Assembly: GCF_000025545.1 (NCBI RefSeq)
Contig: NC_013889.1
Span: 248,001 to 312,000, forward strand
Direction: 5' to 3'
Length of the DNA: 64,000 nucleotides
Source of the DNA: Thioalkalivibrio sp. K90mix
GTDB lineage: Bacteria; Pseudomonadota; Gammaproteobacteria; Ectothiorhodospirales; Ectothiorhodospiraceae
The translations under genes and the position numbers were made by a program. Below the pieces are notes generated by a model. That model was not told the origin of the DNA and did not search any database. It was given only the letters and a program-made list of their open reading frames with translations. This document shows, piece by piece, positions 9,200-22,182 of this stretch (positions are counted from its first letter, which is position 1; each line of letters opens with the position of its first letter).

Positions 9200-10329
9200 G
9201 ATTGCGCTCCCTTCAGGGCCTCACGGGTGGCCTCGTGCACGATCTCGCCGTCGCGGGTCAGCACGCTCTTGGCGATGACCTCGTCGTCCCAGTCCGGCTT
9301 GAACTCGCCGCCCTCGGCGATCATCGGCGTGAGGAAATTGAGCAGGTTCTTGGCGTACATCTCGGAGGCATGCAGCGGGACCTGCGAGGGCACGTTCAGC
9401 GGGGCGTGGATGATCACGCCCTTGTGCCGGCTGGTCTTGCCTGGCTTGGACAGCTCGCAGTTGCCACCACCCTCGGCCGCGAGATCCACGATCACCGCGC
9501 CCGGCTTCATGCCCTCGACCATGTCCTTCGGGATCAGCTTCGGGGACTCGCGGCCCGGGATCGCGGCGGTGGTGATCAGCACGTCGGCCTTGGCGATGAA
9601 CTCGCTCAGCGCGTCCTGCTGCTGTTGCTTCTCTTCCGCGGTCAGTTCGCGGGCATAGCCGCCTTCGCCCTCGGCGGAGACGCCCAGATCGAGGAACTTC
9701 GCACCCAGCGACTCGACCTGCTCCTTGGTCGCGGAGCGCACGTCGTAGGCCTCGACCATCGCGCCCAGGCGCTTGGCCGTGGCAATCGCCTGCAGCCCGG
9801 CCACGCCGGCACCGATCACGATGACCTTGGCCGGGCGGATGGTGCCGGCCGCGGTGGTCAGCATCGGGAAGAAGCGGCAGGAGAGATCCGACCCCATGAT
9901 CGCGCCCTTGTAGCCGACCACGGCCGCCTGCGACGACAGCACGTCCATGCTCTGGGCGCGCGAGATGCGCGGGATCAGCTCCATCGCGAAGCTCAGGATC
10001 TTGCGTTCCTGCATCGCCTTGACCACGTCCGGGTTGCGGTGGGCGTGGAACAGGCTGACGACGGTGGAGCCCTCCGGCAGCTGGTTGACCTCTTCCACCG
10101 TCGGTGGGGCCACGCGGACCATCAGGTCCGACTGACCGTAGGCCGTCTCGGTATCGACCACGGTGGCCTTCTCGTAGGCCGTGTCCGGGAAATGGGCATT
10201 GGAGCCGGCACCCTTCTCCAGCTGCACGGTGACGCCCAGATCGCTGAACTTGGCCGCCACCGTCGGATCCAGGGCCACGCGACGTTCGCCGCTGGCGGAC
10301 TCCTTGGGAACGGATAATTTGATTGCCAT
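9196..10329 (-). CDS. pntAA: NAD(P) transhydrogenase subunit alpha-1 (NAD-binding)
   Basis: A 377-residue soluble domain I of transhydrogenase, which binds NAD(H) on the cytoplasmic face. It belongs to the alanine dehydrogenase/PntA fold. The N-terminus is MAIKLSVPKESASGERRVALDP, and the Rossmann motif is VIGAGVAGLQAIATAKRLGA at about residues 170-190. The length fits the split alpha-1 form rather than the fused E. coli PntA of about 510 residues. It is first gene of the operon; the 391 bases upstream should contain its promoter. Confidence 0.95.
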   Translation of the reverse strand: MAIKLSVPKESASGERRVALDPTVAAKFSDLGVTVQLEKGAGSNAHFPDTAYEKATVVDTETAYGQSDLMVRVAPPTVEEVNQLPEGSTVVSLFHAHRNPDVVKAMQERKILSFAMELIPRISRAQSMDVLSSQAAVVGYKGAIMGSDLSCRFFPMLTTAAGTIRPAKVIVIGAGVAGLQAIATAKRLGAMVEAYDVRSATKEQVESLGAKFLDLGVSAEGEGGYARELTAEEKQQQQDALSEFIAKADVLITTAAIPGRESPKLIPKDMVEGMKPGAVIVDLAAEGGGNCELSKPGKTSRHKGVIIHAPLNVPSQVPLHASEMYAKNLLNFLTPMIAEGGEFKPDWDDEVIAKSVLTRDGEIVHEATREALKGAQS

Positions 10330-10720
10330 GCGCTCTCTCCCCGGGCCAAGCGTCCCCGCAATCCCTCCGGGACGTTCGGCCGCGCTCGCGGGTGGTATTA
10401 AGGACGCCGAACAAGGCTTTTGTGGCCCATTCGGCGGAAAAAACGGCCAGCAAGTGTAGCGGAATCGCCTTCGCGCTTAAACAGCCCGTTGATGGGGCGC
10501 GTTCTCCGGGCCCGCATCCACGCGCCCAACCGGTGTTCATGCGGCTGTAATTGCGTTGCGGGCTCGGCCTGTTTATTGTCAAGCAAGTTTCGTGCGATCC
10601 CGCACCGCGCCAGCGGTCGACTCGGCGAAGGGGACATGGATTTGCTCACGCCCGGCGGCGTCGGGCCTGCTCAAGTTCCGCGTGAGCAAATCCGTGTTTC
10701 CTTGGAGACGGGACGAGGTC
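10330..10720. other. pntAA-HNH divergent intergenic region (391 bases)
   Basis: Non-coding region between divergent pntAA and the HNH gene. It must hold promoters for both, but I found no convincing -35/-10 pair. Its clearest structure is a long inverted repeat at 10634-10697. Open frames crossing it (for example minus 10398-10649 and plus 10420-11127) have low-complexity R/A/P compositions and were rejected. Confidence 0.6.
10634..10697. repeat. 18-bp inverted repeat with 28-base loop
   Basis: ACATGGATTTGCTCACGC at 10634-10651 pairs with GCGTGAGCAAATCCGTGT at 10680-10697. Fourteen of the base pairs are perfect and contiguous; one outer position is a T/G wobble and three more outer pairs then match. 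The loop is 10652-10679. It ends 23 bases before the HNH start codon, so in mRNA the hairpin would sit in the leader just upstream of the ribosome-binding site. No T tract follows, so a simple terminator is unlikely. A dimeric repressor site, a translational control hairpin, or a relic of a small mobile element remain possible. Confidence 0.75.
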
Positions 10721-11302
10721 ATGTTGCCGACCGAGCATCAGGTCCTGCGTACGGACGCCGCGGGTATGCCACTGGAATGGATCGGCCTGGAACAGGCCGT
10801 GCGCCTCTACTACACCGAGCAGGTCGCCTACGCCTGCGGGAGTCTGCTGTATCGCGTGCGCGGGGGCATCAACGCCCGCACCGGGCTGCAGTCCCGGGTC
10901 GAGGTCAACTCGATCATCGCCACCTTCGGCACCCGCCAGTCCCGCTTCAATCACTATATCCCGCCGCTCAACAACACCACGCTGTTTCGCCGCGACGCGC
11001 ATCTGTGCCTGTACTGCGGCCAGCACTTTTACGAGCGCGATCTCTCGCGCGACCACGTCACCCCGATCAGCCAGAACGGGGCCGATACCTGGAACAACGT
11101 GGTGACCGCCTGCAAGCGCTGCAATAACCACAAGGCCGGCCGCACCCCCGAGCAGGCCGGCATGCAGCTGCTGGCGATCCCGTTCACGCCCACCCACGCG
11201 GAATACATCTACCTGAAAGGCAAGCGGGTGCTGGCCGACCAGATGGAGTTCCTGCTGGCGCACTTCCCCCGGACCAGCCCCCTGCGCGGCCGCCTCGGCT
11301 GA
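10721..11302 (+). CDS. HNH endonuclease family protein
   Basis: A 193-residue protein with a zinc-type HNH domain: CxxC at C96/C99 (CLYCG), the D-H pair at 111-112 (SRDHVTPIS), the W-N-N at 124-126, and CxxCN at C131/C134 followed by H137. The frame is open further upstream (to 10556), but that extension is low-complexity and overlaps the inverted repeat. I chose ATG 10721 because ACGAGG lies just upstream and the protein begins MLPTEHQVLRTDAAG. It is a stand-alone chromosomal HNH protein with no toxin, methylase or phage neighbour. Substrate and role are unknown. Confidence 0.85.
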   Translation: MLPTEHQVLRTDAAGMPLEWIGLEQAVRLYYTEQVAYACGSLLYRVRGGINARTGLQSRVEVNSIIATFGTRQSRFNHYIPPLNNTTLFRRDAHLCLYCGQHFYERDLSRDHVTPISQNGADTWNNVVTACKRCNNHKAGRTPEQAGMQLLAIPFTPTHAEYIYLKGKRVLADQMEFLLAHFPRTSPLRGRLG

Positions 11303-14234: not shown

Positions 14235-17200
14235 ATGGGCGACAGCTGGCAATCGCATGACAATGTGATATCTATTCAGGGCACCTCTCCGGACGTGTCG
14301 CTGCAACCCTCGTCGTATTCCATCTGGGCCGAGCGCTATCAATTGCGCGATGCGCACGGCGAGCCGGTGGACGCCTCGATGGAGGCGATGTTCGACCGCG
14401 TTGCGCGTGCGCTGGCGGCCGTCGAGGCGCCGGACCAGCGCGCGCCGATCGAGCGCGAGTTCCGCTGGGCGCTGGACAACGGTGCCATCCCGGCCGGGCG
14501 GATCCTGGCCAATGCCGGGGCCGAGGCGCACAAGCCGCAGACCACGCTGATCAACTGCACCGTCTCGCGCACGATTCGCGATTCGCTGCAGGCCATCCTG
14601 GATGCCAATACCGTCGCCGGGCTGACGCTCAAGGCCGGGGCCGGGATCGGCTACGACTTCAGCACCCTGCGCCCGAAGGGTGCGCTGGTCGCGGGCGCCG
14701 GGGCCCCGACCAACGGCCCGGTCGCGTTCATGCAGATCTTCGACCAGACCTGCCGCACCATCGGCGCGGCCGGCGGCCGCCGCGGGGCGCAGATGGCGAC
14801 ACTGGACATCGGCCACCCGGATATCGAGCGCTTCATCCTTGCCAAGCGCCGCAAGGGGCGGCTGACCCAGTTCAACCTGTCCGTGCTGGTGCGCGATGCC
14901 TTTTTGGAGGCCGTGGAGCGCGACGACGAATGGGCGCTGGCCTTCCCGCTGCTGCCCGTGGAACAGGACGGGGTGCCCGCATCCGATCTCGTCTATCGCG
15001 ACTGGCCGGTGGTCGAGGACGGCTACCGCGTCGACGACCAGGGCCGGGTCGCCTGCCGTGTCTGTCGCCGCGTGCGCGCCCGCGAGCTGTGGGAAACCCT
15101 GATGCGCAGCACCTATGACGTCGGCGAACCCGGCGTCATCCTGATCGATCAGGTCAACCGCCAGAACAACGCCTGGTTCGACGAGGTGATCCGCGCCACC
15201 AACCCCTGCGTTACGGCAGACACATGGATCCACACGTCTATCGGGCCGCGTCAGGTGCGAGATCTGTTGGGACAGCAATTCCGCGTGAGGGTTGATGGCC
15301 GAGACTACACAACGGGCGAACAAGGTTTCGTCCCGACTGGGGCAAAGCAGGTCGTTCGATTGGCTACTGCTGAGGGTTATCAGTTGAAACTGACGGCCGA
15401 TCACCGGTTGCGTCGCGTTACCCGCTACACACGTTATGTCACGGAAACAGAATGGTGTGCGGCGGCGCGGCTGCGCGAAGGCGATCGGGTGTTGCTCAAC
15501 GACCATCGCGCCCACGCCGAGTGGCCTGGTGAATACACCCATGAGCAAGGTTACTTGCTGGGTATGTTGGTCGGTGACGGCACCCTCAAGAACGACAAGG
15601 CGGTGCTATCGGTTTGGAAGCTGGCCGCTGTTGTTGGCACCAGTCCCGATGCGGTTTCCCCGGCGGGGGTGGAAGGGATTATGGAAGAGGTAATGAGGTC
15701 TGCCCGGACCTTGCCACATCGCAGTGATTTTTCAGGATGGCAGGAAGTGGCTGGCCGGAACGAATTCAGGCTTAGCCTGGCTGCCCTAAAGTCTCTGGCA
15801 GAAGAAGTTGGCATGGGGCCGGGCGCGAAGTCGGTTACTCCGGCTATGGAGCAAGCTTCAAGCGAGTTTTGTCGAGGATTTCTCCGGGGGATGTTCGACG
15901 CTGATGGTTCCGTTCAGGGCGGTCAGCAGAAGGGTGTCAGCGTTCGCCTCTCACAGTCTGATATGTCGCGTTTGGAAGCCGTACAACGGATGCTTCTGAG
16001 GCTGGGGATTGCGTCATCAATCTACAGGAACCGCCGTTCGGCCGGGATGCGCCACCTGCCAGACGGTAACGGCGGCGCTAAGGAGTATGCGATCAAAGCG
16101 CAGCACGAGCTGATCGTCAGAGGTGAGAACCTCCAACGCTTTCTCCAGCAAGTCGGCTTCGCGGACACGGACAAGAAACGACGTCTGGAACAAGCCCTGG
16201 CCCGATACAAGCGCGGCCTGAACCGTGAGCGTTTCGTCGCACGGGTTACGAAGATCGAACCCGGCGGGATTGAAGAAGTTTTTGATGTGTCTGTTCCAGA
16301 TGTGCACGCATTTGATGCTAACGGTTTGTGTGCGCACAACTGCGGCGAGCAGCCGCTGCCGCCGGACGGGGCCTGCCTGCTGGGCTCGGTGAACCTGACC
16401 CGATTCGTGTCCGCGCCGTTCAGCGCCGACACCGCCTTCGACTGGGAACGCTTCGAGCGGGTGGTGCGCGTGTTCACGCGCATGCTGGACAATGTTGCGG
16501 ACATCTCCGGGTTGCCGCTGCCAGAGCAGCGCGCCGAGATGCTGCGCAAGCGCCGCCACGGCATGGGCATCCTCGGGCTCGGTTCGGCGCTGGCGATGCT
16601 GGGGGAGACCTACGGTTCGGAGTCGGCTGCTGGCTTCACCGCGGAGGTCTGTCGCCGCCTGGCGCTGGCGAGCTGGCGGGCCGGCCTGGAGCTGGCGCGC
16701 GAGAAGGGCCCGGCGCCGATCATGGACGAGGGTTTCACGCTGACCGCGGACATGCTGCGGCGGCAGCCGGCTCTCGCCGAGGCCGGCTACCAGGTGGGCG
16801 ACGTGCTGAAGGGGCGCGAACTGCACGCCCGCTTCAGCCCCTACATGCAGCACGTCGCCGTGCAGGACCCGGCGCTGGTCGCGGCGCTGGCCGAGGAGGG
16901 CGCGCGCTTTACCCACGCCACCTCCATCGCGCCCACCGGCACCATCAGCTTTTCGGTCGCCAATAATGCGAGCAACGGCATCGAGCCGACCTTTCTCCAC
17001 CACACCACGCGCAACATCCGTCGCCCGGGGCGGCGCACCCGCGAGGCGGTGGATTGCTACTCGTACGAGCTGCTGGCCTACCGGGCGCTGGTGGATCCCG
17101 AGGCGGGCCCGGAGGATCTGCCCGCTAACGCGATCACCGCGGAACGCGTCGGCGTGGACGCCCATATCCGCATGCAGGCGGCCGCGCAACCGTGGGTGGA

Positions 17201-17504
17201 CTCGGCCATCTCCAAGACGCTCAACGTCCCGAGCGATATCCCGTTCGAGGGGTTTAAAGAGGTCTACCTGCAGGCCTGGCGCGCGGGGCTCAAGGGTTGC
17301 ACCACCTACCGGCCGAATCCGCAGGCGCAGATGGGCGTGCTGGTGGACCCGGAACGCCTGCGCAGCACCTGGTACACCTTTACCCTGACGGACGGCCGGG
17401 AGCTGACCCTGCGCGGCGACGAAGAGGTGGAATACGAAGGACAGATCCACACCGCCGCGAATCTCTTCGCCGCGCTGGACGAGGGCTACTACGACGACGT
17501 CTGA
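14235..17504 (+). CDS. nrdJa: adenosylcobalamin-dependent (class II) ribonucleotide reductase, large part, intein-containing
   Basis: Precursor of 1089 residues: extein 1-324, intein 325-702, extein 703-1089, giving a mature protein of about 711 residues. Class II RNRs make dNTP precursors with coenzyme B12 and no oxygen requirement. The extein junction reads ATNP then CGEQPLPP; the NPCGE Cys is the family's thiyl-radical cysteine. Other RNR landmarks are GRILANAG, LKAGAGIGYDFSTLRPKGA, and SIAPTGTISF near the C-terminus. The family's C-terminal Cys tail is absent here and is supplied by the next gene, as in Pseudomonas NrdJa/NrdJb. No cobalamin riboswitch was seen upstream. Activity requires protein splicing. 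Confidence 0.95.
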   Translation: MGDSWQSHDNVISIQGTSPDVSLQPSSYSIWAERYQLRDAHGEPVDASMEAMFDRVARALAAVEAPDQRAPIEREFRWALDNGAIPAGRILANAGAEAHKPQTTLINCTVSRTIRDSLQAILDANTVAGLTLKAGAGIGYDFSTLRPKGALVAGAGAPTNGPVAFMQIFDQTCRTIGAAGGRRGAQMATLDIGHPDIERFILAKRRKGRLTQFNLSVLVRDAFLEAVERDDEWALAFPLLPVEQDGVPASDLVYRDWPVVEDGYRVDDQGRVACRVCRRVRARELWETLMRSTYDVGEPGVILIDQVNRQNNAWFDEVIRATNPCVTADTWIHTSIGPRQVRDLLGQQFRVRVDGRDYTTGEQGFVPTGAKQVVRLATAEGYQLKLTADHRLRRVTRYTRYVTETEWCAAARLREGDRVLLNDHRAHAEWPGEYTHEQGYLLGMLVGDGTLKNDKAVLSVWKLAAVVGTSPDAVSPAGVEGIMEEVMRSARTLPHRSDFSGWQEVAGRNEFRLSLAALKSLAEEVGMGPGAKSVTPAMEQASSEFCRGFLRGMFDADGSVQGGQQKGVSVRLSQSDMSRLEAVQRMLLRLGIASSIYRNRRSAGMRHLPDGNGGAKEYAIKAQHELIVRGENLQRFLQQVGFADTDKKRRLEQALARYKRGLNRERFVARVTKIEPGGIEEVFDVSVPDVHAFDANGLCAHNCGEQPLPPDGACLLGSVNLTRFVSAPFSADTAFDWERFERVVRVFTRMLDNVADISGLPLPEQRAEMLRKRRHGMGILGLGSALAMLGETYGSESAAGFTAEVCRRLALASWRAGLELAREKGPAPIMDEGFTLTADMLRRQPALAEAGYQVGDVLKGRELHARFSPYMQHVAVQDPALVAALAEEGARFTHATSIAPTGTISFSVANNASNGIEPTFLHHTTRNIRRPGRRTREAVDCYSYELLAYRALVDPEAGPEDLPANAITAERVGVDAHIRMQAAAQPWVDSAISKTLNVPSDIPFEGFKEVYLQAWRAGLKGCTTYRPNPQAQMGVLVDPERLRSTWYTFTLTDGRELTLRGDEEVEYEGQIHTAANLFAALDEGYYDDV
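15207..16340 (+). mobile_element. LAGLIDADG homing-endonuclease intein inside nrdJa
   Basis: In-frame 378-codon insertion beginning with Cys (CVTADTWI, block A) and ending AHN before Cys+1, the standard splice-junction chemistry. Block B includes LKLTADHRL with its TxxH. Two dodecapeptide endonuclease motifs are LLGMLVGDG (about precursor residue 440) and FLRGMFDADG (about 550), each with its acidic residue intact. Block F is EEVFDVSVPDVHAF. Sampled 60-base blocks inside are about 52-62% G+C versus 72-78% in the flanking exteins, indicating recent lateral arrival. Both splicing and homing motifs look intact. Confidence 0.96.
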
Positions 17505-18527: not shown

Positions 18528-18909
18528 TCGATACCCCCTGTTGTTTTTTGCCACGTTCGGTGGATCTACCTTTTTCGGTATATGCCCACCACCTTGTGAT
18601 CATATCCCGATATTTCCCGTCGCTAATAGCTGGATCAGGTCTCACGCATCCCGGCATGATGCAGCGGACGCGAAGGGCATATCGGAATCGAGCACATCCA
18701 GACGGAGGACACCATGAGCCACATTTCCGCCGTCTAACCGAGTCTAGAACAGTTCTGCGCGTCCCGTTGGCCTGCTAAATCCGAAGGTGGAGCCCATTCC
18801 CGCATTCACCAGAGTGGGCAGCCACTCGGCTGGCACGGGGCGCCATGGAAATCTCGACGGCGGTCTCGTACTCTGGCCCGCCATTCGTCCACACCCTGCG
18901 GGAGACCTC
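18528..18909. other. AT-rich non-coding stretch upstream of orphan gene
   Basis: About 380 bases with markedly lower G+C than the chromosome average here. It contains the upstream region of the small secreted peptide gene (minus) and of the orphan gene (plus). A long plus-strand frame antisense to the peptide gene (18421-18717) was rejected. No repeat, tRNA or clear promoter was recognised. Confidence 0.5.
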
Positions 18910-19338
18910 GTGGCCCATATACTGAATCCGTACGCCGACGATCAGCCCGAGCCGAAGCACATCGTCCTGCGTGCTCGCAGTGGCGAGGCGGTTTCGGCCA
19001 ACTTCACCCTGCAGGATCGGCGGGGCCGCCAGAGCGCGGCGGAATACCTGTTCCATCTCTATTCCACGATCAAGCAGAAGTTGGACGAGCCGGTCCTGGA
19101 TACCGCTGCGCCATCGCCGGACGACCAGGCCGCCATGCAGCGGCTGATCCTGTACTCGGCCGGCGCCCACGACACCATGTTCGGCACCTTCAATGCCTCC
19201 AGTGCCTCCTCGGAGATGCCGGAGGAGGAGCGCAACGAGTTCGTGGAAATCTTCCTGCTGGCTTGCGCCACCGTCATCGAGGGTCAGCGGATCACCGTCG
19301 ACCTCCAGCGCGGCCTCGTCACCGCCGAGACGGCCTGA
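18910..19338 (+). CDS. orphan protein of unknown function
   Basis: Predicted 142-residue protein starting at GTG 18910 (VAHILNPYADDQPEPKH), with GGGAGA a few bases upstream; the frame stays open back to an ATG at 18787 (183 residues). The body is a plausible soluble alpha-helical, acidic protein (SAAEYLFHLYSTIKQKLDEP, then MPEEERNEFVEIFLLACATVIEGQ) with no motif I recognise. It ends only six bases before the left end of the IS element, so its stop codon survives but any downstream partner could have been separated. Function unknown. Confidence 0.55.
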   Translation: MAHILNPYADDQPEPKHIVLRARSGEAVSANFTLQDRRGRQSAAEYLFHLYSTIKQKLDEPVLDTAAPSPDDQAAMQRLILYSAGAHDTMFGTFNASSASSEMPEEERNEFVEIFLLACATVIEGQRITVDLQRGLVTAETA

Positions 19339-19352
19339 GCGGCATGTAGTGG

Positions 19353-20545
<1,193 letters not shown>

Positions 20546-20591
20546 TCATCATTCCACCGATCGAGGTGTCCACCAACATTAGACCAGCACA

Positions 20592-20781
20592 GCACGGCCC
20601 GGCGTTGAAAGACTGTTTCGGGGACAAAAGGCAAGGTTTGACCCCGGGATTTGGGAAGGGAACCGGGGCGGCTGAGCGGCAGCCAAGGGGTTGAGAACAG
20701 GGGTGGATTCATGGCCGAAGGGGGCGCAATGGTTGCTAGACTGGCCCCAGAACGAGAACCAGAAAGACACCAGGGGGACGC
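20592..20781. other. IS right flank and leader of the AcrVA2-like gene
   Basis: About 190 non-coding bases. Besides the TSD copy at 20592-20594 and the AGGGGG ribosome-binding site at the right end, it contains GGGGACAAAAGGC and GGTTTGACCCC segments suggestive of a dispersed repeat, but I cannot confirm a second copy in the window. Confidence 0.4.
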
Positions 20782-21849
20782 ATGGGGAAACCAACATTCC
20801 AGTACCACCCGGTCCGTTACGCCAAGCACATGCGGCCGGCGTTCGAGATGACCGCCGACCAGTTCTATGGGCATAGCGGCGGCGACCGCGAAGAACTTGG
20901 CGGCCTGCTGGCAAGTACAGTTTTCGGGGAAGTAGCCCGCCGGCTGATCGAGGCTGACCCGCACCCCACCGTGCCAGCAGACCCGGACCAATGGGGACAG
21001 CACCAGGAAATGGTATTCGGCGCCTACCAGTCCTCCCTGACCAACGGCGAGAACATCTTCCATATCCAGCCCGCGCTGGCCGACATGTTCACGAAGACCG
21101 ACGTGGACCAGATAGCCGTCGACCAGTTGCGGCTGCCCTTCGATGCGTTCTACCTGCACTTCGGCCAGGTGGATGGCTTACAGCTACCAAGCCGGGGCCG
21201 CTACATCGACGGCGCCTACGTGCAAGACGGGGAAGTCCTGATGATCTGTTTCACGGCTGCGGATCCAGGTTTGGACTATGCCGAGCCGTTGCCTGTCGCG
21301 CGGTTCATGGCCGCCGATGAACAACTGGAGTTCGTCCTGGGTGGCGAACCGGGAATGACTGTCGGCCAGTCCATCCAAGACGCCCAGCGGGACTTCACCC
21401 GCGTGGATCACCTGCGGGAGGTCTACACCCAATGGGAGCCCGCCTTCCCGGCCGCGACGCGCCTTCTGATGAACGCGCTTTGCTACCTGGGCTCACCGCA
21501 CCGGGAGGTCAACGAACGATTTTCCGACGACACCCCAAAGACCATAGCCCGCAAGTACGCCAGCGCCACCAGTCGCAAACAAAGGGACCGCGTGCTGAGC
21601 AAGGCCAAGGCTCAAGGCTTCCGACGAATCCAGTTCCTTGGGGATTCCATCCAGGGCGCGGCGGCTGTTCGTGGCGGCGGCGAGGTTTCCCCGCACTGGA
21701 GGCGCGGACACTGGCGAAACCAGGCCCACGGCCCGGAGCGAAGGCAACACCGGCTGGTCTGGATTCAGCCCACCATCGTGAAGGGCGACCAGGGCGCCCC
21801 GGTGAAGGGAAAGCACCTGTACGAAGTGGACAGCAAGCCGGGCGAATGA
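20782..21849 (+). CDS. phage/plasmid-type protein with AcrVA2-like C-terminal signature
   Basis: A 355-residue soluble protein, ATG 20782 with AGGGGG five bases upstream. The N-terminal two thirds has no motif I can name. The C-terminus has a basic segment (ARKYASATSRKQRDRVLSKAK) and then VSPHWRRGHWRNQAHG followed by LVWIQPTIV. I recall this HWRRGHWR...WIxPT signature from uncharacterised phage and plasmid proteins and from relatives of AcrVA2, an anti-CRISPR reported to lower Cas12a expression. That link is from memory and unsearched; an actual anti-CRISPR role here is speculative. It sits between an IS element and a tRNA gene, in accessory DNA. Confidence 0.5.
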   Translation: MGKPTFQYHPVRYAKHMRPAFEMTADQFYGHSGGDREELGGLLASTVFGEVARRLIEADPHPTVPADPDQWGQHQEMVFGAYQSSLTNGENIFHIQPALADMFTKTDVDQIAVDQLRLPFDAFYLHFGQVDGLQLPSRGRYIDGAYVQDGEVLMICFTAADPGLDYAEPLPVARFMAADEQLEFVLGGEPGMTVGQSIQDAQRDFTRVDHLREVYTQWEPAFPAATRLLMNALCYLGSPHREVNERFSDDTPKTIARKYASATSRKQRDRVLSKAKAQGFRRIQFLGDSIQGAAAVRGGGEVSPHWRRGHWRNQAHGPERRQHRLVWIQPTIVKGDQGAPVKGKHLYEVDSKPGE

Positions 21850-21876
21850 GGGCTACCCGTCACGCCAGCCACAACG

Positions 21877-21907
21877 AAAAAGCCCCGGAAGCCGAAGCCG
21901 CCGGGGC
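21877..21907 (-). terminator. terminator downstream of tRNA-Ile2
   Basis: Stem GCCCCGG (21882-21888) paired with CCGGGGC (21901-21907). On the minus strand it is followed by five T residues (21877-21881). It lies directly past the tRNA 3' end in its direction of transcription, and it could also stall read-through from the plus-strand gene ending at 21849. Confidence 0.75.
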
Positions 21908-21914
21908 GTGAAGG

Positions 21915-21991
21915 TGGTGGGCCCACCAGGACTTGAACCTGGAACCAACAGATTATGAGTCTGCTGCTCTAACCAGTTGAGCTATAGGCCC
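21915..21991 (-). tRNA. tRNA-Ile2 (anticodon CAT, lysidine type)
   Basis: A 77-base cloverleaf with encoded CCA. Acceptor GGGCCTA pairs with TGGGCCC (one G-T pair); D arm GCTCAACTGGTTAGAGC; anticodon arm GCAGA-CTCATAA-TCTGT; T arm CCAGG-TTCAAGT-CCTGG. The CTCATAATC loop context and the TTAGAGCAG core match tRNA-Ile2(CAU), decoded as Ile after TilS lysidine modification, more than elongator or initiator Met. It lies near the rpoD 3' end. A truncated copy sits about 190 bases upstream. Confidence 0.9.
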
Positions 21992-22029
21992 TGAACTGTC
22001 TGCGGGGCATTTCGTGCCGTTCCTGGAAG

Positions 22030-22050
22030 CTGCTTCCCATCTGCTTCCCA
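22030..22050. repeat. tandem direct repeat CTGCTTCCCA x2
   Basis: CTGCTTCCCA occurs at 22030-22039 and 22041-22050, one base apart, between the two tRNA copies. Short direct repeats beside tRNA-type attachment sites can be integrase arm-binding sites, so this may be a relic of an integrative element. Function not established. Confidence 0.4.
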
Positions 22051-22141
22051 GCGGCGCGCCCCATCGTTTCGATCCGCCTTGAGCGTCTGCAAGGCGCTGA
22101 ATTGTCTACGTTATTTCTGCTTTCGTCCTTGTCCATCAAGG

Positions 22142-22182
22142 GATTATGAGTCGACTGCTCTAACCAACTGAGCTACAGGCCC
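22142..22182 (-). pseudogene. truncated tRNA-Ile2 (5' half only)
   Basis: Reads 5' GGGCCTGTAGCTCAGTTGG..., continues through the D arm and GACTCATAATC anticodon loop, then loses tRNA character: no pairing 3' anticodon strand, no T arm and no CCA. It shares the 11-base block GATTATGAGTC (plus strand 22142-22152) with the intact tRNA (21951-21961) in the same orientation. It differs elsewhere in the D arm, so it is not a recent duplicate. The pattern fits a tRNA split at its anticodon loop by an integrative element or its later collapse. Confidence 0.8.

Follow-up and report, generated by a model that had tools for sequence, protein, structure and literature searches.

A distant relative of AcrVA2 in a transferred single-gene unit between an insertion sequence and a tRNA gene of Thioalkalivibrio sp. 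K90mix

The gene and the island beside rpoD

The stretch of DNA analyzed here (64,000 nucleotides, hereafter the window) belongs to the genome of Thioalkalivibrio sp. K90mix (2.99 Mb, 2 contigs). An open reading frame at 20782-21849 on the plus strand encoded a protein of 355 amino acids, with an ATG start and AGGGGGA just 5' of it, and a promoter scan 5' of the gene called none. The protein carried HWRRGHWRNQ at residues 305-314 and LVWIQPT at residues 325-331, and both the ORF coordinates and this pattern agreed with a preliminary description of the window. The same description had placed the gene between an insertion sequence (IS) and a tRNA gene, and both were present. The upstream neighbor was an IS3-type element (19345-20591, minus strand) with a transposase in two ORFs (20524-20234 and 20237-19353; HTH_Tnp_1 and rve) and, at its ends, inverted repeats of 38 bp (19345-19382 and 20554-20591) that are imperfect, at 71% complementarity. 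Downstream lay a tRNA gene at 21915-21991 on the minus strand. A GC-rich inverted repeat recognized from the sequence 3' of the stop codon (21882-21907, plus strand) was terminator-like in the scan on the minus strand only.

Together, the IS3 element, the gene and the downstream tRNA formed an island remnant (19342-22136), delimited by synteny breaks with relatives. Besides that of the window, 10 genomes matched rpoD, and five of them were compared; names given to genes, rpoD and valS among them, were read from the translations. In all five, an intact tRNA(CAT) directly followed rpoD, and the alignment to the window broke at 22137, inside this tRNA. Synteny resumed at 19338-19341 in four of the five, the fifth having no match on that side. 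Four relatives held 0.2, 0.3, 2.1 and 2.1 kb between the island boundaries, so the site is variable in relatives too; the island stands where they have these 0.2-2.1 kb, to which the missing 3' end of the native tRNA belongs. An ORF just outside the left boundary (18787-19338) showed no family match under E 0.01 and no plasmid match, and was considered chromosomal because it was conserved in four of the five relatives.

The native tRNA(CAT) was broken, with an intact one beside it, in an apparent tRNA takeover by the island. Only the 5' part of the native gene was left (22137-22182, minus strand; repeat D1), with a breakpoint set by the five relatives that have the gene intact, and this part was 85% identical to the intact gene at 21915-21991. 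The intact, non-native tRNA(CAT) was called tRNA-Met by ARAGORN; we take it to be a tRNA-Ile2 of the lysidine type, as it resembles E. coli ileX. Its identity to the rpoD-side copy of the five relatives was 79-82%. The genome of the window yielded no second close copy, so the cell probably depends on this tRNA, which would keep that end of the island in place. A search for a plasmid or phage source returned only ordinary tRNA matches. Copies 87-90% identical occurred in other searched genomes, adjoining rpoD in two of them (G003 and G038), and this type of tRNA may therefore be one that circulates at the rpoD site, not an alien one.

Recent transfer and purifying selection

Two related genomes have recently exchanged the window gene, which moved in a unit of 1.2 kb and occupies a different site in each. 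The unit (20707-21909, plus strand), made of 75 bp of upstream sequence, the ORF and the GC-rich inverted repeat, matched positions 9926-11128 of a 20-kb locus of Ectothiorhodospira mobilis DSM 237 (L001) over 1203 bp with 96.6% identity (41 mismatches, no gaps), and was the sole match between the window and this locus at E 1e-5. The encoded proteins were 98% identical, and no further near-identical copy was found. Between the two genomes valS, the one background gene compared, was only 79% identical; set against this value, the 96.6% identity of units located at different sites points to a recent exchange of the gene. The E. mobilis copy was preceded by hicA, hicB and cowN and followed by tRNA-Ser(CGA), unlike the neighbors of the gene in the window. 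The gene was present in one of the 58 searched relatives, the genome of the window itself, E. mobilis DSM 237 not being recognized among those 58. The preliminary description had assigned the gene to a mobile region, and its presence in E. mobilis as a nearly identical unit at another site bears this out. Upstream of the E. mobilis copy, positions 9290-9385 looked by eye like a duplicated valS 3' end, as if an element had inserted there.

The gene is under purifying selection. Its codon differences from the E. mobilis copy comprised 23 synonymous changes on 250 sites and eight non-synonymous changes on 815 sites (ratio about 0.11). Nine of the 41 nucleotide differences fell within 21013-21072, and four of the eight amino-acid changes within codons 78-88. 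This clustering, tested after looking at the data, gave p 0.004 for non-synonymous differences and p 0.014 for nucleotides; a short recombination tract would fit it equally well as diversification of a target site.

Relationship to AcrVA2

Searches with the single protein sequence against Pfam, NCBIfam, PADLOC and the PDB gave no match, and membership in an unrelated enzyme family was rejected at this single-sequence sensitivity. Two phage protein families matched it: phrog_15934 at residues 308-344 (E 1.1e-10) and phrog_6160 at residues 191-336 (E 6.2e-6). The former, made of phage proteins of unknown function, was the best PHROG match but covered those 37 residues alone; the latter is the family of AcrVA2 and was matched by nine of nine AcrVA2-clade proteins. 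Given these PHROG matches, the sequence pattern of the C-terminal motif can be taken to exceed chance.

The predicted structure of the protein resembled AcrVA2 along most of its length. An AlphaFold2 model built from 23 sequences, none of them from the AcrVA2 clade, was of middling quality (mean pLDDT 67, pTM 0.64; residues 1-88 mostly below 60). In a Foldseek search of the PDB, AcrVA2 chains nevertheless took the three top places (7ci1_A, E 8.8e-6; 7ci1_B, 6.8e-5; 7ci2_A, 3.9e-4; probability 0.98-1.00), and the fourth chain was unrelated (E 0.47). VIA-align superposed model residues 15-334 on residues 13-316 of the AcrVA2 chain (Z 11.9, 227 residues, rmsd 6.7), with Z 11.3 for a second AcrVA2 and 4.2 for the next entry. 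TM-scores to the AcrVA2 chains were low (0.32-0.41, rmsd about 10 Å). Nitric oxide synthase, a histidine kinase and other chains also appeared among the fold matches and seem to be background, none being better than E 0.47 or Z 4.2. Against predicted viral structures, the model obtained 12 matches at E up to 0.001; of the eight that named an organism, seven came from phages and one from an unclassified virus.

Profile comparisons pointed to the same family once AcrVA2 was represented by its own clade. A direct profile search of the PDB ranked 7ci1 behind 11 unrelated chains in a first run (E 3.8, against 0.49 for the best of them), and listed it as the sole chain, but at E 7.3, in a second. 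An AcrVA2 fragment taken from the PDB profile match was then used as query for the clade of AcrVA2 itself and matched 22 records, which included Moraxella phages, Shewanella phage Y11 (with a protein annotated as AcrVA2) and plasmids of Moraxella, Thioflavicoccus, Aeromonas, Pectobacterium, Nitrosomonas and other hosts. The profile built from nine of these 22 records matched 7ci1 at E 3.4e-86. Aligned with hhalign to this nine-row profile, the 14-row profile of the window clade (described below) reached a probability of 97.7% (E 2.4e-12, 262 columns). With the Shewanella protein alone (ORF43 of phage vB_SbaS_Y11, annotated as AcrVA2 in PMC10846135), a phage gene product inside the AcrVA2 clade that served as a bridge, the alignment was weak (probability 53%, E 1.4e-4), covering 119 columns that end in the shared motif. 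The profile link to AcrVA2 was therefore clear only with the AcrVA2-clade profile as bridge, and the window protein was 14-19% identical to proteins of that clade.

From the fold and profile matches taken together, the window protein is distantly related to AcrVA2 over most of its chain, and not in the C-terminal part alone; the ORF was annotated on this basis as an AcrVA2-like single-gene unit. The preliminary description had noted that the C-terminal pattern recalls AcrVA2, a likeness upheld by both the structural (Z 11.9) and the profile-profile (E 2.4e-12) match to AcrVA2. It had also regarded the N-terminal two thirds as resembling nothing known, a view that proved wrong, as the AcrVA2 fold covers this part too, detectably by profile or fold only. 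The approximate extent of the AcrVA2-type central (MID) domain was codons 89-290 (21046-21651, plus strand), from model and alignment ranges with boundaries set by eye.

In annotated records, the near-full-length relatives were encoded on plasmids. A tblastn search with the window protein retrieved 91 plasmid records (E up to 1) and seven phage records, the latter matching in the C-terminal part only. At a coverage of at least 80%, there were 12 plasmid records among the matches listed, including several with equal scores from P. aeruginosa or P. paraeruginosa, and no phage record. Overall, relatives of the gene occurred on plasmids, viral contigs and genome contigs. The preliminary description had suggested domestication from a phage, which the results do not support in that form: the gene was exchanged recently, and the best-covered relatives lie on plasmids, yet the protein nearest in the tree after the E. 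mobilis copy came from a viral contig (L057, 35-37% identity).

The window-clade profile aligned the window protein with 13 relatives from annotated plasmids (13 of the 40 listed rows; 91 records overall), 24-29% identical to it. G89, T106, P119, F127 and G144 were invariant, and a C-terminal H-x-R-x-G-H-x-R-x-Q was found in 13 of the 14 rows, the exception being a Pantoea protein (L044) that ends early, without its C-terminus, beside an IS6 element. Eleven of the 14 members matched phrog_6160 and nine matched phrog_15934. Four plasmid relatives (L032, L034, L037 and L044) had an extra N-terminal part of about 150-190 amino acids by their annotated starts; one of them (L032, from Denitratisoma) gave no Pfam match. 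In a further relative (L002), this extra part is perhaps longer. Remoter relatives in viral contigs and genomes retained little besides the C-terminus. One of the six patterns used in those searches was derived from the motif, and 21 viral loci (L046-L066) were retrieved using the motif itself as search pattern, so its occurrence in these loci is no evidence for the motif.

A maximum-likelihood tree was computed from 24 rows, comprising two motif-retrieved viral loci (L057 and L065) and 22 others (the window, E. mobilis, and plasmid or phage records); the Pantoea protein and a Polaromonas one (L101) were left out of this set, the first being kept in the window-clade alignment and the second in the AcrVA2-clade profile. 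The rows separated into two sister clades with a support of 100/100 (midpoint root, for drawing only). Considered with the profile and fold matches, these two clades place the window protein in the AcrVA2 superfamily, outside the AcrVA2 clade proper. No earlier published description of the window clade was found in open-licence PubMed Central.

The two clades shared P119, G144, H305, R307, H310, G317 and V333 in 24 of 24 rows, and R308, W327 and P330 each in 22 of 24; carriage by mobile elements is a further trait that the window gene has in common with AcrVA2. The C-terminal signature common to the window protein and AcrVA2, HxR(R)[G/A]HW..G..W.P..V, spanned codons 305-333 (21694-21780, plus strand) and is proposed as an effector element; its R308 and W311 varied. 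Position 312 separated the clades, with R in 16 of 16 rows of the window clade and H in eight of eight of the AcrVA2 clade. The HW-H-G-x-W specific to the AcrVA2 clade was absent from the window protein, which had HWRNQ there instead. Ten residues of a pocket for a docked Cas12a peptide are listed for the Shewanella protein in PMC10846135, and all ten letters agreed with the corresponding record (L095). Eight of them could be aligned to the window protein and one was identical, in a weakly aligned stretch and for a pocket taken from a docked complex. This poor conservation would fit a different ligand, with the reservation that the pocket was docked rather than solved and that the alignment is weak there.

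CRISPR context and possible roles

AcrVA2 of Moraxella bovoculi is reported to recognize the nascent N-terminal LSKT of Cas12a and to trigger decay of the cas12a mRNA (PMC13131331). That paper presents it as the first example in prokaryotes of an mRNA destroyed at the direction of a nascent peptide, by a degradation machinery that it gives as unknown. It also lists crystal structures of AcrVA2 (7CI1) and of its complex with Cas12a residues 618-634 (7CI2), in which a peptide from inside the finished Cas12a is bound. According to meeting abstracts, AcrVA2 degrades the mRNA of tagged enzymes, and Cas9 and Cas12f were lowered (PMC12908700). The orthologue AcrVA2.1 is reported to inhibit Cas12a likewise in P. 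aeruginosa (PMC7556299), and huge phages to encode proteins clustering with AcrVA2 (PMC7162821).

The genome of the window encoded a type I-F CRISPR-Cas system (L107 299-4887 and L081 8883-17165), with an array of 77 repeats and 76 spacers. Cas1f, Cas3f, Csy1, Csy2 and Csy4 all scored over NCBI cut-offs (five of the five ORFs submitted; Csy3 was not among them). No match to Cas12a (TIGR04330) was obtained in 40 genomes, that of the window included, in a search whose control was silent. Among 370 genomes of the class, the Cas12a model matched one (G129), and not the genome of the window. The family of the window gene matched four of the 370, namely the genome of the window and three others with weak partial matches (E 7e-4 to 4e-11), G129 not being among them; at most four candidates were scored per genome in this survey, and the draw of the Cas12a survey appears identical. 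Of the CRISPR-Cas loci for which the preliminary description had proposed to look, no Cas12a was found, and a large type I-F system was.

Self-targeting I-F spacers, as evidence for an anti-I-F role, were rejected, none being convincing in the genome of the window; another search gave only short matches to unrelated loci. The best spacer match outside the array (E 1.5e-4) lay 35 bp past its end on the other strand, and was taken as a degenerate repeat since it overlaps a repeat and adjoins the array. The remaining matches outside the array were at E 0.08 or worse.

The preferred reading, given a probability of about one half, is that the window gene encodes an AcrVA2-like silencer of a mobile element, directed by a nascent peptide and aimed at something other than Cas12a. 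As reported for AcrVA2, a short peptide leaving the ribosome would be bound by the N-terminal and central domains, with decay of the mRNA under translation as the consequence. Rather than Cas12a, the target would most likely be a protein of another host defense or of a rival element, read by a diverged peptide site. The C-terminal H-x-R-(R)-[G/A]-H-W element, kept in both clades, is a candidate for engaging the RNA or the decay step. The RNA- or translation-targeting role put forward in the preliminary description would be a fair extrapolation from AcrVA2. The window protein differs from AcrVA2 in its separate clade, its HWRNQ and its apparently unconserved docking-pocket residues; in addition, no Cas12a was detected in its host, and its gene is a single-gene unit between an IS and a tRNA. 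A broader extension is held more tentatively, at well under even odds: AcrVA2 may be one branch of a large class of mobile-element proteins that read different nascent N-terminal peptides by a diversifying platform and destroy the message through the conserved C-terminal H-x-R-(R)-[G/A]-H. The window gene would then encode one such protein on its own, moving from one chromosomal site to another and directed against a defense other than type V CRISPR. The logic would be comparable to TTC5-type tubulin autoregulation in eukaryotes, where a nascent N-terminal peptide leads to destruction of the mRNA (PMC10403363, PMC13131331), as a mechanistic analogy and with no homology claimed.

The main rival to this silencing role, somewhat unlikely in our judgment, is that the AcrVA2 fold predates its anti-CRISPR use and extends beyond it, and that the window clade consists of plasmid or phage regulators (of copy control, partition, conjugation or exclusion) binding protein or RNA without mRNA decay. 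Plasmid neighborhoods speak for it: the Denitratisoma relative lies beside TrfB-like, ParA, ParB and RepA genes, the Pantoea relative beside an RHH and ParE-type pair, and an ArdK-like regulator near the AcrVA2-clade gene of a Pectobacterium plasmid, and the extra N-terminal part of four plasmid relatives points the same way. A plasmid or phage regulator is harder to reconcile with a gene that stands alone between an IS and a tRNA in the window and among chromosomal-looking genes in E. mobilis, that is under purifying selection, and whose product has its C-terminal motif in common with AcrVA2. An inhibitor of CRISPR or of another defense that leaves the mRNA alone and binds a finished host protein directly (e.g., a type I-F protein) appears improbable. 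In its favor, the type I-F array of the host has 77 repeats, the BREX region of a Thioflavicoccus plasmid has an AcrVA2-clade gene placed after brxL and a small ORF, and the peptide bound in the AcrVA2 structure of PMC13131331 is an internal one of finished Cas12a. Against it, the search found no spacer whose self-targeting would make an inhibitor necessary (E 0.08 at best for matches away from the array), and the direct neighbors in the window are a transposase and a tRNA, with no regulator.

Two further alternatives are remote. That the protein genuinely inhibits Cas12a, and is retained against type V-A systems that arrive or have been lost, would agree with its AcrVA2 fold and is very unlikely, as it belongs to the sister clade outside that of AcrVA2, and Cas12a was found in none of 40 genomes (with the silent control) and in one of the 370, none of which combined it with the window family. 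Least probable of all is a decaying relic stranded between the IS and the tRNA gene. The island does seem eroded, with the IS at its left end and no recognized integrase-like ORF within 19342-22136, but the reading frame is intact in both genomes, the substitution ratio is about 0.11 and the signature residues of the family are kept.

The presence of a sister clade in a host with no detectable Cas12a suggests that the natural role of the family is wider than action against Cas12a. It also sets the residues common to the two clades (H305, R307 and H310, and nearly always R308 and W327) against the diverging ones, so that mutagenesis could be pointed at the candidate effector site. Proteins of the window clade would further serve for learning whether recognition can be aimed at other peptides.

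Two minor observations concern other genes. On the Thioflavicoccus mobilis plasmid pTHIMO01 (L097 2352-5828), the AcrVA2-clade gene located after brxL and the small BREX-region ORF faces a gene with a reverse-transcriptase domain. In the window itself, an intein with a LAGLIDADG domain (15211-16339) splits a ribonucleotide reductase gene (14235-17504), and the ribonucleotide reductase genes of three relatives, which have no intein, align to both of its flanks.
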